From Acinetobacter piscicola (GTDB taxonomy: Bacteria; Pseudomonadota; Gammaproteobacteria; Pseudomonadales; Moraxellaceae), in contig NZ_CP048659.1 of NCBI RefSeq assembly GCF_015218165.1, positions 2,232,001 through 2,296,000 on the forward strand: 64,000 nucleotides of DNA, given 5' to 3'. The notes beneath the pieces were generated by a model. The model saw only the letters and a list, made by a program, of their open reading frames with translations, was not told where the DNA came from and ran no database searches. A program made the translations under genes and the position numbers. Below are positions 35,758 through 44,457 of the stretch, piece by piece; within the stretch, counting starts at the first letter, position 1; each line of letters opens with the position of its first letter.

Positions 35758-36522
35758 TTAGATCCCGCGCCAATCGACTCGTGCGTTCCGCTCAGTCATA
35801 TAAATACGCTGTACATATTGCCCTATTGGCAAATTCAGCAACTCATTTTTATAATTTTTAACCTCTTCCGATACACTTTGCTCAGACTCAACTTCCCACG
35901 GTGTTCCATTTAAAAATAACAAGGGTGCAAGCATAGAACAGACGGCAATGTCTGCCAAACCTAAGCGGTCGCCCACCAAATAGCGACATTGATTTTCAAC
36001 AAGTTTACTATTAAGTTGTTGCGTAATTTCATCGATTTTACGTTTAGATTCAGCAACTTTTTCCACATCCAATTGATAGCTTTTTGAAACCAACGTTTTT
36101 AAAATAGGTTTGGAAAATTTTTCGAATTGGCGTAAATAACCTTTTTCACCCAACATAATCTCTAAAGGTTCATCACTGGTCGATAAAGCCTGTGCTAAAC
36201 CCCAACGGCGTACATGTAATCCCAATTCATTGGCAATCGCATTGATTTCTAATGCGTGTTGACGAAGTTGCGTATCTAAACGAAGCAAAGTATGTTCTGG
36301 ATACTGATCATCTAAATACAATGCAATTTGGGTAGAGTCGGCAATCCAGCGCTCACCATCTTTTAAAATCGGTAGTTTATTTTGCCCTGTTTTCAATTGA
36401 GCAAATGCTCGATGCACCCCAGGCATCATATTTTGTGCTACAAAATCGATTTCTTTATGATCAAGTAACCAACGTGCTTTTTCACAGTAATGCGACAAAG
36501 GAAATTGGTAAAGGGTGCGCAT
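35758..36522 (-). CDS. Glutathione S-transferase-like protein
   Basis: A 254-residue cytoplasmic protein. The thioredoxin-fold N-terminus reads TLYQFPLSHYCEKARWLLDH, with NKLPILKDGERWIADSTQIALYL giving the cis-Pro and gamma-glutamyl contact motifs. A helical C-terminal domain follows, with GDRLGLADIAVCSML as the N-capping box. The position of Ser/Cys in SHYC suggests a thiol-active site. Substrate unknown. It is divergent from the organosulfur genes. Confidence 0.8.
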   Translation of the reverse strand: MRTLYQFPLSHYCEKARWLLDHKEIDFVAQNMMPGVHRAFAQLKTGQNKLPILKDGERWIADSTQIALYLDDQYPEHTLLRLDTQLRQHALEINAIANELGLHVRRWGLAQALSTSDEPLEIMLGEKGYLRQFEKFSKPILKTLVSKSYQLDVEKVAESKRKIDEITQQLNSKLVENQCRYLVGDRLGLADIAVCSMLAPLLFLNGTPWEVESEQSVSEEVKNYKNELLNLPIGQYVQRIYMTERNARVDWRGI

Positions 36523-36899
36523 ATAATCTCCAAATTATTTTTTTAATCAAAGCTTTAGAATAATACCAAGCGATTACATCTACTTTAACTTTTCACTTAA
36601 AAAATTACAATGTACTTTTTGTTCAAAAAAATGGGCAATTATTCAAATTGTCATCATCAATTTATATGAGTTTAATCAATCTTTATTCTTAAATTGAATA
36701 TGAGTTTCTCAACGCGACCCACTTTAATCGCTTGAAATTAATTTTCATCATACTAAACAAATACTTAACTTATAATTAAAAAATATTTTTTATGCAATTT
36801 TAATTTTAAAACTTTATTCATATAAGAATAGCATAATAGTTCGTTTAATTTTTCATGCTTTTGTGCTTAGCGTTTTGATATCTATTGAAAGGTATCGAT
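36523..36899. other. Intergenic region upstream of the organosulfur gene cluster
   Basis: About 375 very AT-rich bases between divergent genes, likely holding both promoters. AAAGG at 36888-36892 serves the first oxidoreductase gene. No clear operator palindrome was found. Confidence 0.45.
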
Positions 36900-38120
36900 A
36901 TGACTCATATTAATTCAGCACAACTCGCACATCACATTGAAAATGATCAACAAGCGATTAACTCTGCTTTTCAAGTGGCTGATTTTGCATTGGTTGAAAG
37001 AAATATTCGTGATCAACAACGTATTTTGCCCGTTGATGTTATTGAGCAATTTAGTCAAAAAGGGCTAGGTGGAATTCGCATTGCAAAAAAATATGGCGGT
37101 GCTGAAGTTTCTAATAAAACTTTGGCGCATGTTTTTCGTATTTTAAGCAAAGCTGATGCAAATGTTGGACAGATTCCTCAGAATCAATTTGGTTTACTCA
37201 ATGCCATTGAAAGTATTGCAAGTGAAACGCAAAAACAGTTTATATACAGCGAAATTTTAAAAGGTAAACGCATTGCTAACGGTGGGCCTGAACGTTATAG
37301 CAAAGACACAAAAACCATCGAAACGCGTTTAAGTTTTGAAAATGGTCAGTACCTTTTAAATGGTGAAAAGTTCTATTCCACGGGTTCATATTTTGCTGAT
37401 TATTTAGCCATTCGCGCCCTCCATCCTGAAGGGCATATTGTATTAATTATTATTGATGCCAAATCTCAAGGAGTTGAAATTGTCGATGACTGGGATGGTT
37501 TTGGTCAGCGTACTACAGCGAGTGGCACAGTTCGCCTTAAAAATGTCGTGGTCAATCCTGAACTGATCATGAATGAACACGTATTAGCAGATGCAACAAA
37601 ATACCGTGGGGCCTATTCACAGCTCATCCAAGTCGCAATTGATGTCGGGATCGCAGAAGCCGCATTTGCTGAAACTATTTCTACCATTCATAAAGCACGC
37701 CCAATTGTTGATGCTAATGTCGAAAAAGCCAGTTTTGAAGCCTATACCTTACAAGAAGTTGGCAAGTTAAATGTGTTATTGGATGCTGCCATTTTACTAC
37801 TCGATGAAGCCGCTGACTATCTTGATGAACTGGATTTCCTGTCACAAAGTACTGAAACAGGTATTAGTGTAGAACAAGCCAGTAAAGCCTCAATCATCGT
37901 GGCAGAAGCTAAAGTCTATGCCAATAATGCGGCACTGATCATTTCAGAAAAATTGATCGAACTCGGTGGCAGTCGCTCAAGTTTAGAAACACATAATCTC
38001 GATCAACATTGGCGTAATGCCCGTGTTCATACCTTACATGACCCTGTGCGTTGGAAATTTTATGCAATTGGTAACTACTACTTAAATGGCATCCAAAACC
38101 AACGTCATGCATGGATTTAA
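36900..38120 (+). CDS. SfnB/DszC-type flavin-dependent oxidoreductase (acyl-CoA dehydrogenase fold), first copy
   Basis: A 406-residue protein of the acyl-CoA dehydrogenase superfamily, SfnB-like branch. It has IRIAKKYGGAEVSN near residue 55, the flavin/substrate block LNGEKFYSTGSYFADYL and the C-terminal LGGSRSSLETHNLDQHWRN followed by HTLHDPVRWK. Such enzymes use reduced flavin to oxygenate organosulfur compounds rather than acyl-CoA. The ATG at 36900 has AAAGG upstream and is preferred to an in-frame TTG at 36885. It heads a seven-gene run and is followed by a paralogue after 24 bases. Confidence 0.82.
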   Translation: MTHINSAQLAHHIENDQQAINSAFQVADFALVERNIRDQQRILPVDVIEQFSQKGLGGIRIAKKYGGAEVSNKTLAHVFRILSKADANVGQIPQNQFGLLNAIESIASETQKQFIYSEILKGKRIANGGPERYSKDTKTIETRLSFENGQYLLNGEKFYSTGSYFADYLAIRALHPEGHIVLIIIDAKSQGVEIVDDWDGFGQRTTASGTVRLKNVVVNPELIMNEHVLADATKYRGAYSQLIQVAIDVGIAEAAFAETISTIHKARPIVDANVEKASFEAYTLQEVGKLNVLLDAAILLLDEAADYLDELDFLSQSTETGISVEQASKASIIVAEAKVYANNAALIISEKLIELGGSRSSLETHNLDQHWRNARVHTLHDPVRWKFYAIGNYYLNGIQNQRHAWI

Positions 38121-38144
38121 TGGTTAAAAATCAGGGAGAATCAA

Positions 38145-39389
38145 ATGACCACATTTCAAAATATTAACAAAACTTTAGAAGCTCAAAACCAACCTTTTGG
38201 CAAAGCACACATCATCAAAACGGATGCAGAAGCGTTGGAAATTGCGCAACAACTCAGCCAACAATTTAAACAAAATGCGGTACTCCGTGATGCTAATCGT
38301 ATTTTACCTTTTGATGAAATTGAAGCCTTTAGCCAGTCTGGTTTATGGGCGATTACTGTGCCAAAACAATATGGCGGTGCTGAGGTCTCAAGTCTTACGG
38401 TTGCAAAAATCATTGCATTATTCAGCGGTGTTGATGGTTCGATTGGGCAAATTCCGCAAAACCATTTTTATGCTTTAGAAGTATTGCGCAATAATGGTAC
38501 AGAACAACAAAAGCAGAAATTTTATGCAGAGGTTCTTGCAGGTGCACGTTATGGTAATGCTTTAGCAGAATTTAAAACAAAAACGGCAGCCCAAAAGCAT
38601 ACCCAAATCACGCAAACTCAAAGTAAAAATCAGCATGGATACCTTGTAAATGGTGAAAAATTTTATTGCACAGGGAGCTTATTTGCCCATCGTATCCCGA
38701 CATTGGTGCGTGATGATCAAGAGCGTGAGTTTTTAGCCTTTATTTCATCGGATGCTCAAGGCGTACAACGCATCAATGATTGGACGGGTTTCGGGCAAAA
38801 AACTACAGGTAGTGGCACGGTTAAATTCAACCAAGTCTTTGTCGAAGCCGAAGATGTAGTTCGTTTTGATACTGCCTTTACGACTCCAACCTTAGTTGGC
38901 CCATTTGCGCAAATCATGCATGCTGCCATTGAAACAGGCATTGCCCGAGCTGCATTTGAAGAAACCATTGAACGTGTCAAAAAAGCGCGCGCTTGGATCG
39001 ATTCCAATGTTGAACGTGCTGACCAAGACCCACTGACCATTTATGAAATTGGTCGCATTGCTGCGGATGTACGTGCCAGTGAAGTTCTATTAAAACAAGC
39101 GGCTCAGTCCATAGATGCAGCCAAGCCCCATCCAACAGATGAAAACATTGCCAAAGCTTCAATTGATGTTGCAAAAGTACGTGCGCACAGCACTGAAACA
39201 GCGCTCAAAGCATCGTCAAAATTGATTGAACTTGCAGGTAGCCGCGGTAGCCAACGTACCGATGGTTTAGATCGTCATTGGCGTAATGCCCGTGTGCATA
39301 CCCTACATGATGCATCACGTTGGAAATATTATTTTATTGGGAACTATGCCTTAAACAATATCCTTCCACCACGTAGAGGGACATTGTAA
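38145..39389 (+). CDS. SfnB/DszC-type flavin-dependent oxidoreductase, second copy
   Basis: A 414-residue paralogue of the preceding gene: TVPKQYGGAEVSSLTVAK, VNGEKFYCTGSLFAHRI and RGSQRTDGLDRHWRN...HTLHDASRWKYYFIGN match block by block. AGGGAGAA precedes the ATG. Two copies in a row suggest two successive oxygenations or two substrates. The downstream monooxygenase gene overlaps its stop (TAATG). The reduced-flavin supplier is not encoded in this run. Confidence 0.83.
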   Translation: MTTFQNINKTLEAQNQPFGKAHIIKTDAEALEIAQQLSQQFKQNAVLRDANRILPFDEIEAFSQSGLWAITVPKQYGGAEVSSLTVAKIIALFSGVDGSIGQIPQNHFYALEVLRNNGTEQQKQKFYAEVLAGARYGNALAEFKTKTAAQKHTQITQTQSKNQHGYLVNGEKFYCTGSLFAHRIPTLVRDDQEREFLAFISSDAQGVQRINDWTGFGQKTTGSGTVKFNQVFVEAEDVVRFDTAFTTPTLVGPFAQIMHAAIETGIARAAFEETIERVKKARAWIDSNVERADQDPLTIYEIGRIAADVRASEVLLKQAAQSIDAAKPHPTDENIAKASIDVAKVRAHSTETALKASSKLIELAGSRGSQRTDGLDRHWRNARVHTLHDASRWKYYFIGNYALNNILPPRRGTL

Positions 39390-40837
39390 TGACGCAATTA
39401 AATCAGACTCCCGAAAATCATAACTCGAAAAAACAGATCCTACTCAATGCATTTGATATGAACTGTGTAGGTCATATCAATCATGGACTATGGACACATC
39501 CACGAGATGAATCACATCGTTTTAATGAACTGAATTATTGGACTGATCTTGCTAAAACTTTAGAAGATGGTTTATTTGATGGCTTGTTTATCGCTGATAT
39601 TACAGGAGTTTATGATGTCTATCAGCATGGCATTGATTTAACTTTAAAAGAATCGATTCAATTACCAAGCCACGATCCTTCCACCCTGATTTCGGCAATG
39701 GCAAGCATCACTCAAAATCTTGGTTTTGGTGTTACGGTGAATTTAAGTTATGAATCGCCTTATCAATTTGCACGGCGCTTTGCGAGCTTAGATCATCTTA
39801 CACAAGGTCGTATTGGTTGGAACATTGTCACAGGTTATTTAGACAGCGCCGAACGATTAATTGGTCAAAAAGGTTTAAAAGACCATGATCTACGTTATGA
39901 ACAGGCTGAGGAATTTTTAGAGCTTTGCTATAAGTTTTGGGAAGGTTCTTGGGAAAATGATGCTGTTTTAAAAGATAAAACCAATCGTATTTTCACTGAC
40001 CCTAGTAAAGTTCATCAAATTCAACATCATGGCAAGTTTTACCAAAGTGAAGGCGTATTCCAAGTTTCACCATCTCCACAACGTACGCCTGTTTTATTCC
40101 AAGCAGGTGCTTCACCACGTGGCTTGGCATTTTCAACCCGTCATGCGGAATGTGTATTTATTGGCGGTGATCAACCTGAAAAGATTAAACAGCAAGTCGA
40201 TAAAATCCGTGAATTGACGGTACAGCAAGGGCGAAATCCTGAAGATATTAAAATCTTTGTTGGTATCACCGTAGTTACGGCAGAAACTGATCAATTGGCG
40301 CAAGAAAAATTAGCAGAATATGCAAGCTATGCAAGTCCTGAAGCAGGTTTGGCTCATTTTTCAAGTTCTGTGGGTATTGATCTTTCCAAATATGCAGATG
40401 ATGAAGCCATTCCCTATCAACAAACCAATAGCATTGCGTCAGTAAATAACAAGTTTAAGGAAAATAAGATCACGCCCAATGATCTAAAAGCACAGCATAA
40501 ACTTGGTGGTCGTTATCCTTTGATCGTTGGCAGTGGTGAAACTGTAGCAAAACGCCTAATCCAACTGATTGATGAAACTGGGATTGATGGCTTTAACCTA
40601 ACACGAACTGTCGCACCTGAATCTCACCATGATTTTATTCGATTGGTGATTCCTGAACTTCAACAACGTGGCAGATTTAAAACTGAATACGCCAGCGGAA
40701 CATTAAGAAGCAAAATTTTCAATCACGGCGATCATTTAACAGCACAACACCCTGCCTCACACTTTCGATGTCAAAGCTCAACCGATAAACAAAACACCGA
40801 GCCAAATTCGGTAAATGTGCATAAGCAAAGTGCTTAA
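39389..40837 (+). CDS. NtaA/SnaA/DszA-family FMN-dependent monooxygenase
   Basis: A 482-residue bacterial luciferase-like (LLM) flavoenzyme. It shows QILLNAFDMNCVGHINHGLW, LFIADITGVYDVY, GRIGWNIVTGYLDSAER and VLFQAGASPRGLAFSTRHAE, the family's TIM-barrel and flavin signatures. Members cleave C-S or C-N bonds using reduced flavin, for example in sulfone or nitrilotriacetate breakdown. The ATG overlaps the upstream stop, so it is coupled to the second SfnB-like gene. The last 45 residues are polar and lack clear conservation. Confidence 0.87.
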   Translation: MTQLNQTPENHNSKKQILLNAFDMNCVGHINHGLWTHPRDESHRFNELNYWTDLAKTLEDGLFDGLFIADITGVYDVYQHGIDLTLKESIQLPSHDPSTLISAMASITQNLGFGVTVNLSYESPYQFARRFASLDHLTQGRIGWNIVTGYLDSAERLIGQKGLKDHDLRYEQAEEFLELCYKFWEGSWENDAVLKDKTNRIFTDPSKVHQIQHHGKFYQSEGVFQVSPSPQRTPVLFQAGASPRGLAFSTRHAECVFIGGDQPEKIKQQVDKIRELTVQQGRNPEDIKIFVGITVVTAETDQLAQEKLAEYASYASPEAGLAHFSSSVGIDLSKYADDEAIPYQQTNSIASVNNKFKENKITPNDLKAQHKLGGRYPLIVGSGETVAKRLIQLIDETGIDGFNLTRTVAPESHHDFIRLVIPELQQRGRFKTEYASGTLRSKIFNHGDHLTAQHPASHFRCQSSTDKQNTEPNSVNVHKQSA

Positions 40838-40865
40838 TTTAAATGAAATATGAGTAAGTAATGAG

Positions 40866-40955
40866 CGTTCCTTCTCCCTTTGGGAGAAGGCTAGGATGAG
40901 GGGTATTTATAAAATGAACCTCTCCCCAACCCTCTCCTTTGAGGAGAGGGAATAT
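40866..40955. repeat. Intergenic double-hairpin repeat (CTTCTCCC/CCCTCTCC type)
   Basis: Two hairpins: 40870-40890 (CCTTCTCCC with GGGAGAAGG) and 40930-40950 (CCCTCTCCT with AGGAGAGGG), joined by about 40 bases that include GATGAGGGG and CCTCTCCCCAAC. This resembles dispersed intergenic repeats in many gammaproteobacteria. A partial relative may lie at 11657-11682. It could modulate transcript level between the oxygenase and transporter genes. Confidence 0.7.
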
Positions 40956-41027
40956 CCATTATTTAAAAAACTTTAAAGCGAGTTTATACATTTTATATCG
41001 CAGATTTAACAGATTTCGGGAAACTTT

Positions 41028-41894
41028 ATGACTCAAACAAATTCTTCTATACACAATAATGCATCCAAGAATAAATTTATTATTCTCGGCATTATCATCA
41101 TCGCAGTGATTGCAGGGCTTTTCTATTGGAAGCATCATAAAAAAGCAGGCTCAGAAGAAATCACTATTGGTATTAGCCCGCCTTTTGCTGTGCCTTTACA
41201 AGTTGCTGTAGATGAAGCAAAACAAAAAGGGATTAATGTCAAACTGGTTGAATTTTCAGATTGGAATACACCCAATATTACGCTGAATCATGGCGATATT
41301 GATGCCAATTATTTCCAACACCAACCCTTTTTAAGCAATGCGCTGAAAGAAACAGGTTTTAAACTCAAACCGATTGCAACAGGTGTTGCAACCCATGTCG
41401 GTTTATATTCTAAAAAGTACAATTCTTTAGATGCCGTACCTGAAAATGCACGTGTGGTTATTCCAAATGATCCAGTGAACCAAGGTCGAGCATTGTTACT
41501 TTTACAACAAGCAAAGCTGATTACACTCAAAGATCCTGAAAATCATTTGTCTAATCTTCAAGATATTACAGCGAACCCTAAACATTTCAATTTTATTGAA
41601 GTCGAAGGTCCACAAACTGCCCGTGCCGTAGACGATGCAGACCTAGTATTTAGCTACCCGCTTTATTTACGTCTTGCTAAAACCATTGATCCAAATAAAG
41701 CACTGCTTTTGGATGACAACACTAATACCCGTTATGCCATCTTGTTTGTTGTTAAAGATGATTATGAACAAACCCATCCTGAAAAAGCCAAACAACTGAA
41801 AGAGTTTATTCACATTTACCAAACTTCAGACAAAGTTAAAAAAGCGCTGAACGATGATATTGGTGAAAAACTTTGGTTTGCAGGTTGGAAATAA
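41028..41894 (+). CDS. MetQ/NlpA-family substrate-binding protein, membrane-anchored, first copy
   Basis: A 288-residue binding protein. The mature part has IGISPPFAVPLQVAVDEAKQ, VKLVEFSDW and NARVVIPNDPVNQGRALLLL, the NlpA-type methionine/organosulfur pocket. The N-terminus has one hydrophobic segment (FIILGIIIIAVIAGLFYW) but no cysteine at its end, so it would be anchored by an uncleaved helix rather than lipid. It is followed after four bases by a paralogue and then MetN and MetI. Methionine is one possible ligand; a sulfonate or sulfone-related compound fits the upstream enzymes. Confidence 0.82.
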   Translation: MTQTNSSIHNNASKNKFIILGIIIIAVIAGLFYWKHHKKAGSEEITIGISPPFAVPLQVAVDEAKQKGINVKLVEFSDWNTPNITLNHGDIDANYFQHQPFLSNALKETGFKLKPIATGVATHVGLYSKKYNSLDAVPENARVVIPNDPVNQGRALLLLQQAKLITLKDPENHLSNLQDITANPKHFNFIEVEGPQTARAVDDADLVFSYPLYLRLAKTIDPNKALLLDDNTNTRYAILFVVKDDYEQTHPEKAKQLKEFIHIYQTSDKVKKALNDDIGEKLWFAGWK

Positions 41895-41898
41895 GATC

Positions 41899-42735
41899 AT
41901 GTCGCAAACATCTAAAGCAAATTTAAAGAAAATCCTGATTGGCGTTGCTGTCGTAGTTGTTATATTGGGTTTAGCTGCCTATCGCTATACCCAAAAGACG
42001 CAGCAAGATAACGTACTTAGCATTGGTATTAGCCCGCCTTATGCAGAGCTTTTACAAACCGTTGCTAATGAAGTTGAAAAAGATGGTATCCATGTCAAAT
42101 TGGTAGAGTTTTCAGATTGGCAAGCGCCCAATATCGCGGTTCAAAACCGAGATATTGACGCTAATTTTTTCCAACAAAGTGTATTTTTAAAAAATGCCAT
42201 TAAACAAACCAATTATGACTTGCACGCTTTTGGTATAGGTAGTGGTAGCCATGTCGGTTTATATTCAAAACAATATAAATCTTTAGATGCATTGCCACAA
42301 AATGCACGTGTGGTGATTCCAAGTGACCCTGTAAATTCTGCACGAGCACTGATTTTGCTAGATCGAGCTGGACTTATAAAAATCAAAGATGTAAATAACG
42401 AACTTTCAACCCTACAAGATATTGTATCCAATCCTAAACAATTGAAATTTTTAGAAGTTGAAGGTCCTCAAACCGCTTTGGCTTATGACGATGCAGATTT
42501 AATTTTCGGCTTTCCTCACTATTTAAATATGGCAAAAAAAGCTGATCCACATAGCGCATTATTTTTAGACCCTATTGATAAAAAATACGCCATTCTTTTT
42601 GTAACGCGTACCGATTATCAAGACCAAAATCAAAAGTTAGAAAAATTTATTCATGCTTTCCAAAATTCACAAAAAGTCCGTGAAATCTTAGATAAAGATT
42701 TCGGAAAAGATATGTGGTTTGCAGGCTGGAAATAA
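41899..42735 (+). CDS. MetQ/NlpA-family substrate-binding protein, second copy
   Basis: A 278-residue paralogue of the preceding gene. It keeps IGISPPYAELLQTVANEVE, VKLVEFSDW, NARVVIPSDPVN and the end WFAGWK. It too has a single N-terminal hydrophobic helix (ILIGVAVVVVILGLAAY) and no lipobox cysteine. The ATG at 41899 is four bases after the first copy's stop; upstream in-frame starts lie within that gene. The duplicated receptors could widen the ligand range of one transporter. Confidence 0.82.
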   Translation: MSQTSKANLKKILIGVAVVVVILGLAAYRYTQKTQQDNVLSIGISPPYAELLQTVANEVEKDGIHVKLVEFSDWQAPNIAVQNRDIDANFFQQSVFLKNAIKQTNYDLHAFGIGSGSHVGLYSKQYKSLDALPQNARVVIPSDPVNSARALILLDRAGLIKIKDVNNELSTLQDIVSNPKQLKFLEVEGPQTALAYDDADLIFGFPHYLNMAKKADPHSALFLDPIDKKYAILFVTRTDYQDQNQKLEKFIHAFQNSQKVREILDKDFGKDMWFAGWK

Positions 42736-42746
42736 GGAGAAATAAG

Positions 42747-43817
42747 ATGGTGAGTTTCGGTTCACAGGTGGATATTTCAATCCCACATATTAAAATCCGT
42801 AACTTAAATAAATATTATGACGGACAAGATCAACAGATCCATGCGCTAAAAAATATTAATCTCGATATTCCCCAAGGAAAGATTTTCGGCATCATCGGTA
42901 AAAGTGGTGCTGGGAAATCCTCACTCATTCGCACATTAAATGGTTTAGAACGTATTTCTGAAGGCAGTATTCATATTCATCAACAGAGTTTATCTGAGCT
43001 GAGTCATGCTGAACTCATTCAAACGCGACAAAAAATTGGCATGATTTTCCAGCATTTCAATCTCATGTCAGCTAAAACAGTGTGGGAAAATGTTGCACTG
43101 CCTTTGAAAATTTCAGGTGTAAATAAAGTTGAAATCGAAACACGTGTCAATGAAGTTTTAAAACTGGTTGGCTTGGAAAATAAGGCACATAACTACCCTG
43201 CTCAATTATCTGGTGGTCAAAAGCAACGTGTTGGTATTGCACGGGCACTGGTACATCACCCTGAAATTTTACTTTGTGATGAAGCCACCTCCGCACTTGA
43301 TCCTGAAAGTACTTCGGTGGTTTTAGCTTTATTGAAAAAAATCAATCGTGAACTCGGTATTACCATCGTTTTAATTACCCATGAAATGCAGGTGATTCGT
43401 GAAATCTGTGACCAAGTTGTGGTGATTGAACATGGTGAAATTGTGGAATCAGGTCAGGTCTGGTCAGTATTTTCAAAACCACAGCAAAAAATCACACAAG
43501 AACTGCTCAATCTTGAACAATTGGATTTACCCTTCCAAGTGAGTCGTGACTTACAAGAAGATTCAACACATCGCATTTTAAAACTACGTTATGAAACCGA
43601 TCCAAAGCATTCACCCGATTTAACCAAATTGTTTCAAGTTTTTGAAAGTTCAGTACATTTGTATCAAAGCCATATTGACAACATACAAGGACATTTGATT
43701 GGCACACTCATCGTGGGTATTGCTCAAACCGATCTCGATCTTGAATATTTACAAGAAAAATTAAAACATGACATCGCACAAATAGAGGGACTTGGCTATG
43801 CACGACCAACTCATTGA
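42747..43817 (+). CDS. metN: MetN-type ABC transporter ATP-binding protein
   Basis: A 356-residue ATPase. It has Walker A GKSGAGKSS (about 49-57), Q-loop FQHFNLMSAKTVWENVALPL, signature LSGGQKQRVGIARAL, Walker B ILLCDEATSALDPEST and H-loop LITHEMQVI. The C-terminal NIL domain (about residues 270-350) is the MetN regulatory domain that binds the imported substrate and inhibits transport. AAGGAGA precedes the ATG. Its end overlaps metI by 20 bases. Confidence 0.9.
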   Translation: MVSFGSQVDISIPHIKIRNLNKYYDGQDQQIHALKNINLDIPQGKIFGIIGKSGAGKSSLIRTLNGLERISEGSIHIHQQSLSELSHAELIQTRQKIGMIFQHFNLMSAKTVWENVALPLKISGVNKVEIETRVNEVLKLVGLENKAHNYPAQLSGGQKQRVGIARALVHHPEILLCDEATSALDPESTSVVLALLKKINRELGITIVLITHEMQVIREICDQVVVIEHGEIVESGQVWSVFSKPQQKITQELLNLEQLDLPFQVSRDLQEDSTHRILKLRYETDPKHSPDLTKLFQVFESSVHLYQSHIDNIQGHLIGTLIVGIAQTDLDLEYLQEKLKHDIAQIEGLGYARPTH

Positions 43818-44457
43818 TTTATTGCTCACAGGTACGATTGATACCTTAATTATGGTCGGTGTTTCTGCATTGGTTGCCTTTTTAATCGGCTTGCCTTTGG
43901 CTGTGATTTTGGTCAATACCTCTGAACAAGGCATTTATCCATCAAAAAAAATTAATCATGCTTTAGGAACTGTGATTAATATTACTCGTTCAGTGCCATT
44001 CTTAATCTTAATGGTGGCTTTAATCCCTTTGACCCGTTGGATTGTCGGTACAAGTTATGGGGTTTGGGCGGCGGTTGTTCCACTGACTTTAGCAGCAACA
44101 CCTTTCTTTGCGCGTATTGCAGAAGTGAGTTTGCGTGAAGTTGATCAGGGTTTGATTGAAGCAGCTCAAGCCATGGGATGTAACCGCAAACAAATCATTT
44201 GGCATGTCCTTCTTCCTGAAGCTTTACCAGGAATTGTCGCAGGCTTTACCGTGACCATCGTCACCATGATTAACTCCTCAGCGATTGCAGGTGCAATTGG
44301 TGCAGGTGGTTTGGGTGATATTGCCTATCGTTATGGCTACCAACGTTTTGACATGCAAATAATGGTTGCAGTGATTGTCGTATTAGTCGCGCTGGTCATG
44401 TTGGTTCAAGCGTTTGGGGATCATTTGGCGGGTCAGTTGGATAAAAGGAAGGTTTGA
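43798..44457 (+). CDS. metI: MetI-type ABC transporter permease
   Basis: A 219-residue permease with five or six membrane segments and the cytoplasmic coupling (EAA) loop EAAQAMGCNRKQIIWHVLLPEALPG. It forms the channel for the binding proteins and MetN encoded just upstream. The ATG at 43798 follows AGAGGGA and lies within the end of metN. The next TTG upstream at 43792 is not needed. A terminator-like hairpin follows the stop. Confidence 0.9.
   Translation: MHDQLIDLLLTGTIDTLIMVGVSALVAFLIGLPLAVILVNTSEQGIYPSKKINHALGTVINITRSVPFLILMVALIPLTRWIVGTSYGVWAAVVPLTLAATPFFARIAEVSLREVDQGLIEAAQAMGCNRKQIIWHVLLPEALPGIVAGFTVTIVTMINSSAIAGAIGAGGLGDIAYRYGYQRFDMQIMVAVIVVLVALVMLVQAFGDHLAGQLDKRKV

Follow-up and report, generated by a model that had tools for sequence, protein, structure and literature searches.

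A conserved Acinetobacter gene cluster predicted to import and oxidise an organosulfur compound

Introduction

The closest described systems include the dimethyl sulfide (DMS) pathway of Acinetobacter baylyi, in which Dms1 (ACIAD0427), Dms2 (ACIAD0428) and Dms3 (ACIAD2537) oxidise DMS and dimethyl sulfoxide (DMSO) and a single reductase, MsuE, feeds the enzymes tested (PMC13352529, 2026). The genes msuE, dms1-3, msuD and ssuD were up-regulated 405- to 3835-fold on DMS compared to sulfate, and the growth of the dms1-dms2-dms3 triple mutant on DMSO nearly stopped with ACIAD2064 and ACIAD2065 undeleted (PMC13352529). The latter two proteins formed inclusion bodies and were not purified (PMC13352529). 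The present analysis deals with a stretch of 64,000 nucleotides from Acinetobacter piscicola (hereafter the window), in which seven genes at positions 36900-44457 code for two SfnB-type enzymes (A and B), one LLM flavin monooxygenase and a MetNIQ-like importer with two receptors (MetQ1 and MetQ2). The orthologs of these genes are outside the set measured in A. baylyi (PMC13352529). We consider it fairly probable that the cluster is a sulfur-starvation operon which scavenges a non-volatile organosulfur compound by import, S-oxidation, C-S cleavage and sulfite release. No printed description of the cluster was found in the open-licence literature, subscription papers (notably on Cbl) being outside the search, and the literature on Pseudomonas PP_0220-0224 gave nothing relevant.

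Results

Organisation of the cluster

The seven genes are co-directional and were delimited as follows.

36900..38120, plus strand: sfnB1 (A), group D flavin S-monooxygenase (TIGR04022), whose A. baylyi ortholog would be one of ACIAD2064/2065
38145..39389, plus strand: sfnB2 (B), group D flavin S-monooxygenase (TIGR04022), whose A. baylyi ortholog would be the other of ACIAD2064/2065
39389..40837, plus strand: LLM flavin monooxygenase (C), NtaA/DmoA family (TIGR03860), LadA/DmoA-like, proposed C-S monooxygenase
41028..41894, plus strand: metQ1, predicted membrane-anchored receptor of MetQ fold, W69/H88/I229 type (Pfam PF03180, pocket residues, AlphaFold, Foldseek)
41899..42735, plus strand: metQ2, predicted membrane-anchored receptor of MetQ fold, W69/Q88/I229 type (Pfam PF03180, pocket residues, clade of eight MetQ2)
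42747..43817, plus strand: metN-like ABC ATPase with NIL domain (Pfam)
43798..44457, plus strand: metI-like ABC permease (PRK10782, 220.1 over the cut-off of 212)

The starts are those chosen here; the mechanical list of open reading frames (ORFs) opens at an earlier possible start codon for four of the seven genes. Successive genes are separated by 24, -1, 190, 4, 11 and -20 bases, i.e. by at most 24 bases except upstream of metQ1, where the 190 bases are occupied by a dispersed repeat. Pfam assigned both receptors to NlpA/MetQ (PF03180), the product of metN to the ABC ATPases with NIL domain and that of metI to the ABC permeases. Together with the TIGR models this confirmed the families and the doubling of SfnB-like enzymes and receptors which a first-pass annotation of the DNA had noted.

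Conservation as a unit

The neighbourhoods of the best 80 of 581 LLM relatives in named genomes were profiled; as these loci were chosen by their LLM, they show gene order and not frequency. In all 27 Acinetobacter/Moraxellaceae loci among them, the genes for A, B, LLM, MetQ1, MetN and MetI occur in fixed order, while MetQ2 is present in 19. The window comes from an Acinetobacter near A. guillouiae; its seven proteins are 83-95% identical to those of L001. The A. pittii version is tighter, since metQ1 (from its first possible start codon) opens 2 bases past the monooxygenase. A locus from a record labelled A. baumannii ACIN00150 (L002) is also 83-95% identical to the window genes, above A. pittii L013 (72-89%), which makes the label doubtful.

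Across 175 genomes of the genus, a full-length LLM ortholog (at least 69% identity) was detected in 118, while G170 has a broken copy; the MetQ type of the cluster (E value of 1e-85 or better) was detected in 119. Both are found together in 117 genomes, LLM only in one (G064), MetQ only in two (G137 and G170) and neither in 55 (Fisher 6.6e-42, uncorrected for relatedness). The MetQ type is present in two copies in 62 genomes, in one copy in 56, including the A. baylyi-type genome G007 with MetQ1 only, and in three copies in G004, which is 7% contaminated. In each of the 12 cluster-less genomes examined (of 55), a GST-like gene directly adjoins ychF, and tblastn at an E value of 1e-15 gave no piece of the cluster between them; these two genes are its flanks in the window. 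Because LLM and the MetQ type share their presence and absence and the cluster-less sites close up empty, the seven-gene cluster is a genuine, conserved unit.

Decaying copies of the cluster are found in G137, where an internal deletion left pieces of A and MetQ1 plus MetQ2-N-I (L169), in G170, where the frames are interrupted (L181), and in L032, one of the 27 loci, with broken frames. In G064 (L168, 5760-10420), A-B-LLM is retained and other genes occupy the position of MetQNI; by reading, these ORFs resemble a ThiF/HesA-type protein, a HIT protein and an outer-membrane TonB-type receptor.

The SfnB pair and its counterpart in A. baylyi

A and B scored 475.7 and 569.6 bits with the SfnB equivalog TIGR04022, both above the cut-off of 430.9, and only 145.9 and 183.6 bits with the DszC model NF043015 (cut-off 850). 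In a phylogeny covering 35 group D enzymes, the Acinetobacter A clusters with the SfnB that comes first in Paracidovorax, Trinickia and Collimonas (support 99/96), and the Acinetobacter B with the one that comes second there (support 86/93, under the usual mark). As both enzymes group with the SfnB of matching position in other genera, the pair is probably old and ordered rather than a recent dosage copy. Eight DszC positions which we presume to be important were compared with Dms2: B is identical at all eight and A at seven, Gln replacing His at position 97.

The correspondence with A. baylyi was worked out on G007, which was taken as this species from a BenM identical to the solved structure (G089 is equally good). 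We take this structure to come from strain ADP1 and benM to be ACIAD1435. G007 encodes seven SfnB/DszC-type enzymes above 260 bits. From benM, a single enzyme of this type lies at 75 kb for 75 gene numbers (1510) and an LLM at 156 kb for 160 numbers (1595), while the window-type pair is separated from another single enzyme by 446 kb for 472 numbers (2065 to 2537). Since the distances fit the published numbers and a swapped assignment leaves 2537 geneless, the window-type SfnB pair would correspond to ACIAD2064/2065, and the other adjacent pair of G007 to Dms1/Dms2. The candidate for Dms3 is 27-28% identical to Dms2 types, a loose fit with the published remark that dms2 and dms3 are both similar to a single gene of P. 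putida (PMC13352529).

A and B are 70 and 72% identical, respectively, to their G007 orthologs, compared with 42-50% to Dms2 types, 29-33% to Dms1 types and 29-30% to Dms3; with the G007-to-ADP1 numbering adopted here, they form clades separate from Dms1, Dms2 and Dms3. An identity of A and B with Dms1 and Dms2 was ruled out by the 72% orthologs of the latter two encoded elsewhere in the window genome. Dms1 itself falls below the SfnB cut-off (275.7). With this mapping, the defect of the triple mutant despite intact ACIAD2064/2065 suggests that the pair serves something else.

The LLM monooxygenase

The LLM scored 525 bits with TIGR03860 of the NtaA/DmoA subfamily (cut-off 279.7). In the PDB it matched an 'alkane monooxygenase' (478 bits) and a 'dimethyl-sulfide monooxygenase' (441 bits), which we take to be LadA and DmoA, compared with 256 bits for DszA. 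The earlier label DszA/NtaA-like needs correction, the protein being nearer to LadA (48% identity) and DmoA (46%) than to DszA. At six positions of LadA that we take to be catalytic, the LLM displays C14, H17, Y63, Q79, Y138 and H311 in LadA numbering. Five are kept; His138 of LadA is Tyr, as in DmoA, and H311 is retained as in LadA. The A. baylyi ortholog has Ser at position 14. In G007 (L141, 6590-9457), a LadA/DmoA-like LLM (552.7 bits, TIGR03860) adjoins the putative Dms3, so that an SfnB-like enzyme and such an LLM are paired there a second time.

The receptors and the transporter

Residues of 50 Acinetobacter/Moraxellaceae receptors (30 MetQ1 and 20 MetQ2, window included) were mapped onto E. 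coli MetQ. The equivalence of Neisseria and E. coli numbering other than N238/N229 is assumed from counting. In Neisseria MetQ, R156, N213 and N238 grip the amino and carboxyl groups of methionine, and Y81, F98, H100 and Y103 pack its thioether (PMC6739813, PMC12357092). The exchange N229A (E. coli) or N238A (Neisseria) lowers the affinity for L-methionine about 1e5-fold (PMC12357092, PMC6739813).

All 50 receptors display Trp69, Phe86, Phe91, Arg144 and Ile229 and lack Asn in the 202 stretch; from the head-group residues Asn202, Asn229 and Arg144, only Arg144 is kept. Residue 88 is His in all 30 MetQ1 and Gln in all 20 MetQ2. Every sequence has a hydrophobic N-terminal stretch, a nearby Cys was seen in 1 of 50, and no lipobox pattern was flagged. 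The MetQ2 type forms one clade (support 100/100, with 8 of the 20 MetQ2 in the tree), and within the sampled tree it parted from MetQ1 a single time. MetQ1 as modelled by AlphaFold (mean pLDDT 88.7, pTM 0.80) has an N-terminal helix at 13-38. The first 31 rows of its Foldseek search are all MetQ-type proteins, headed by E. coli MetQ (an integrative model), S. aureus PG110 and the crystal structure of E. coli MetQ. The predicted fold is thus that of MetQ, although the pocket residues differ.

As a control, 369 genomes of the class were searched, ten of which, besides that of the window, gave matches at an E value of 1e-60 or better (11 sequences). All ten fully read MetQs retain Y69, N202 and N229, and the eleventh, of which a part was read, combines N202 with Thr229. 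The window genome also encodes a separate MetNIQ, whose MetQ has a lipobox and Asn at both places. The NCBIfam cut-offs were dropped as judge of MetQ and MetN, as this other MetNIQ falls below them too: MetQ1 and MetQ2 reached 162.8 and 150.0 with TIGR00363 (cut-off 228.85) and the Asn-bearing MetQ 127.2, while the MetN of the cluster reached 352.9 with TIGR02314 (cut-off 499.7) and the other MetN 365.5.

The earlier name 'MetQ-like' needs correction, since two of the three methionine head-group residues are gone. Methionine is an unlikely cargo of MetQ1 and MetQ2, judging from the loss of both head-group Asn, the membrane helix in place of a lipobox and the His/Gln difference at residue 88. 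A plain methionine importer was thus weakened as a candidate by the pocket residues. The retained Arg144 would suit an anionic ligand, and the loss of both Asn a ligand without alpha-amino group.

Related loci outside Acinetobacter

Seven loci from other genera were read, three of them (L029, L030, L031) as ORF lists by eye only. In Paracidovorax (L027, 565.0) and Rhodopila (L033, 603.5), SsuD is encoded next to the cluster; in Microvirga (L068, 226.4) it is MsuE, and in Trinickia (L028) SsuE is about 8 kb from the LLM (196.5 over 164). No SsuD, MsuE or SsuE was seen in the ORF lists of L029, L030 and L031. A Trp69 receptor near the LLM occurs in three of the six loci with a MetQ match, namely those of Paracidovorax, Rhodopila and Microvirga. 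The related cluster of Paracidovorax wautersii (L027, 5386-16349) ends with SsuD and contains four MetQ matches, of which one lies between sfnB2 and LLM; the four have Trp69, combined with Ile229 in three and with Met in one over-long frame. The receptor of Rhodopila shows Leu229 with Asn one place on, and that of Microvirga Leu229.

Finishing enzymes and regulation

The first-pass annotation had noted that a dedicated flavin reductase and a sulfonatase are absent. This is correct for the cluster itself, but MsuE (235.8 over 212.5), SfnG (611 over 383) and SsuD (619.9 over 518.2) are encoded outside the window in the same genome. There (L145, 8657-9637, about C1:220.7 kb), an ORF resembling an IS30-like transposase by eye lies between an msuC-like gene and sfnG-msuE.

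Expression data from A. baumannii may concern the same pair. On vitamin B12, one study reports higher expression of ABUW_2335/2336, both named SfnB, along with that of sfnG, msuE and ssu genes (PMC12892962). ABUW_2336 is down-regulated with cys/tau/ssu genes in a gshA mutant (PMC12914303), and SfnB and methionine-transport genes are up-regulated in a cysteine-synthesis mutant (PMC13344012). An identity with the window-type pair fits, because the two are adjacent and both SfnB, whereas Dms1 falls below the SfnB cut-off. One of the papers calls ABUW_2337 a NAD(P)/FAD oxidoreductase, an annotation that speaks neither for nor against this identity.

Discussion

Proposed pathway

Organosulfur import and oxidation is well supported by gene families and context, and to that extent the interpretation given by the first-pass annotation is borne out in part; the reactions, step order, ligand class and regulation are those suggested by families and residues. 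MetQ1 and MetQ2, with their different pockets, would deliver an anionic thioether, sulfoxide or sulfone, probably not an amino acid, to the MetNI-like importer; a methylthio-carboxylate may serve as example, the specific compound being a guess. In the cytoplasm, the SfnB pair would oxidise the sulfur in two non-redundant steps with FMNH2 from the unlinked MsuE. The LadA/DmoA-like LLM would then cleave a C-S bond to yield an aldehyde together with a sulfinate or a similar product. This cleavage could proceed by flavin peroxide attack, as proposed for DszA (PMC11134501), or along the Pummerer-type route put forward for CmoJ (PMC10863075). Finally, the unlinked SsuD, aided by an MsuC-like enzyme or by free FMNH2, would release sulfite for cysteine. 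The doubling of enzyme and receptor, earlier taken as a sign of two substrates or two steps, fits with an apparently old, ordered SfnB pair and with receptors that split once and differ at residue 88.

Several observations weigh against this proposal. Such enzymes do not universally stand beside a W69/I229 receptor: the residues are Tyr69 with Glu229 in Shinella (L030), Tyr69 with Asn229 in Trinickia (L028, opposite strand) and Phe69 with Cys229 in L043. In Shinella pollutisoli (L030, 5068-8983), MetN, MetI and the Tyr69/Glu229 MetQ immediately precede SfnB and LLM, an arrangement suggesting that more than one receptor type serves these clusters. In G064 and Collimonas (L029), A, B and LLM are present but the transporter is absent, so importer cargo and enzyme substrate could differ. 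All 50 receptors show a gap at position 202 of the alignment, and the loss of Asn202 is therefore less firmly placed than that of Asn229. A careful retest found LadA inactive on hexadecane, a ketone and dibenzothiophene sulfone (PMC12449030), so that the reaction cannot be read from family membership alone. None of nine A. baylyi group C enzymes, which may include the LLM ortholog, oxidised DMS (PMC13352529). The alignment of 29 upstream regions identified no regulator site, only short unassignable conserved blocks, and by eye no clear motif is common to six other sulfur-gene upstream stretches. Finally, that ABUW_2335/2336 are the window-type pair is something we infer.

A further claim is held more tentatively: it is possible, if doubtful, that the W69/I229 MetQs are a separate subfamily for amino-less organosulfur acids, for instance 3-methylthiopropanoate or its sulfoxide, and that A-B-LLM is an undescribed desulfurisation route similar to the 4S pathway. 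The other receptor types that adjoin such enzymes lower its odds slightly. As for the earlier claim of an undescribed pathway, the enzyme types and the MsuE-SsuD finish have been published for DMS, while this SfnB pair, following the mapping, is the one left unpurified there (PMC13352529).

Alternative explanations

The alternative which survives best, and which we still regard as unlikely, is that methionine, methionine sulfoxide or S-alkyl cysteines are taken up and salvaged by oxidation, similar to the CmoO/CmoJ route. MetNIQ homologs are present, and YtnJ, presumably CmoJ, reaches 213 bits against the LLM. CmoO makes S-alkyl-cysteine sulfoxides, which CmoJ then cleaves (PMC10863075). Both receptors, however, lack the two Asn that grip the amino-acid head, and the genome has its separate lipobox MetNIQ with both Asn. 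Of the acetylase, deacetylase and LLM-type sulfoxidase with CmoJ that mark this salvage, none is encoded among the seven genes.

There is little chance that the cluster is a second copy of the DMS/DMSO pathway, in which A and B take DMS to DMSO and dimethyl sulfone. The two enzymes belong to the SfnB family like Dms2 and share the compared active-site residues (with one change in A). Their identity to Dms2 and its ortholog is nevertheless only 42-50%, the 72% orthologs of Dms1 and Dms2 are encoded elsewhere, and the triple mutant nearly stopped on DMSO with ACIAD2064/2065 intact (PMC13352529). Moreover, a small neutral compound needs no such importer.

Equally improbable is that transporter and enzymes are merely co-regulated sulfur-starvation genes with different substrates, e.g. 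for sulfonate import and sulfone cleavage. A-B-LLM without MetQNI in Collimonas and G064 and the other receptor types in Shinella and Trinickia would fit with it; the joint presence or absence of LLM and MetQ type across the genus and the same gene mix in Paracidovorax, Rhodopila and Microvirga speak against it.

A carbon or nitrogen pathway, i.e. alkane, aromatic or chelator oxidation by LadA/NtaA/acyl-CoA-dehydrogenase-like enzymes, is very improbable despite the 48% identity of the LLM to LadA, as the alkane activity of LadA was not reproduced (PMC12449030), the paired enzymes pass the sulfur-acquisition SfnB model, and SsuD or MsuE adjoin related clusters.

Neighbouring features

Two further features accompany the cluster.

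36523..36899, plus strand: intergenic upstream region with short blocks conserved across Acinetobacter before sfnB1 (29 upstream regions aligned, including that of the window)
40862..40955, plus strand: dispersed hairpin-forming repeat, outside the pathway (six genomic matches; fold z-score)

The repeat is GC-rich, with six genomic matches counting itself (79-100% identity, some partial). The fold of 40838-41027 has a z-score of -3.55, and the repeat may influence read-through into the transporter genes. A scan for promoters and terminators gave no excess over shuffles (13 vs a mean of 24.4; 6 vs 6.3). The divergent GST-like gene (35758-36522) borders the cluster, its remnant or the empty site in all 15 fetched genomes; it is probably a neighbour and not a member of the pathway.

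Comparison with known systems

If the proposed desulfurisation route is true, C-S monooxygenation would be a physiological role for the LadA-type enzymes, whose alkane activity is disputed. The cluster offers a testable role for the LadA/DmoA-like enzymes, whose alkane function proved irreproducible, and would add a piece to the sulfur-scavenging repertoire of a genus whose DMS route was just solved and which includes a laboratory strain amenable to mutagenesis. Two receptors with a clear, conserved pocket change could lead quickly to the substrate.

The cluster shares with the DMS pathway of A. baylyi ADP1 (Dms1/2/3, MsuD, MsuC, SsuD, MsuE; PMC13352529) the SfnB-type group D S-oxygenases, the unlinked MsuE and SsuD and the logic of sulfate starvation. 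In contrast, its SfnBs are not Dms1-3, and it adds a LadA/DmoA-like LLM and an ABC importer. The 4S dibenzothiophene pathway (DszC, DszA, DszB) resembles it in the proposed order of chemistry, two S-oxidations followed by C-S cleavage by an LLM; here, however, the SfnBs are far under the DszC cut-off, the LLM is nearer to LadA/DmoA than to DszA, and DszB is missing among the seven genes. The S-alkyl-cysteine salvage of B. subtilis also combines S-oxidation with a subsequent C-S cut by a flavoenzyme, and amino-acid-type importer genes are found nearby. CmoO, however, is an LLM and not a DszC-type enzyme, the cluster lacks acetylase and deacetylase, and its receptors lack the residues for the amino-acid head group. 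With LadA and DmoA the LLM shares 46-48% identity and the residues C14, H17, Y63 and Q79, while H138 of LadA is replaced by the Tyr of DmoA. The MetNIQ importer has in common with the cluster the MetQ fold, the NIL-domain ATPase, the MetI permease and Arg144 with an aromatic pocket, whereas the window receptors are two in number, have lost N202 and N229, carry Y69W and display a predicted uncleaved N-terminal helix instead of a lipobox.

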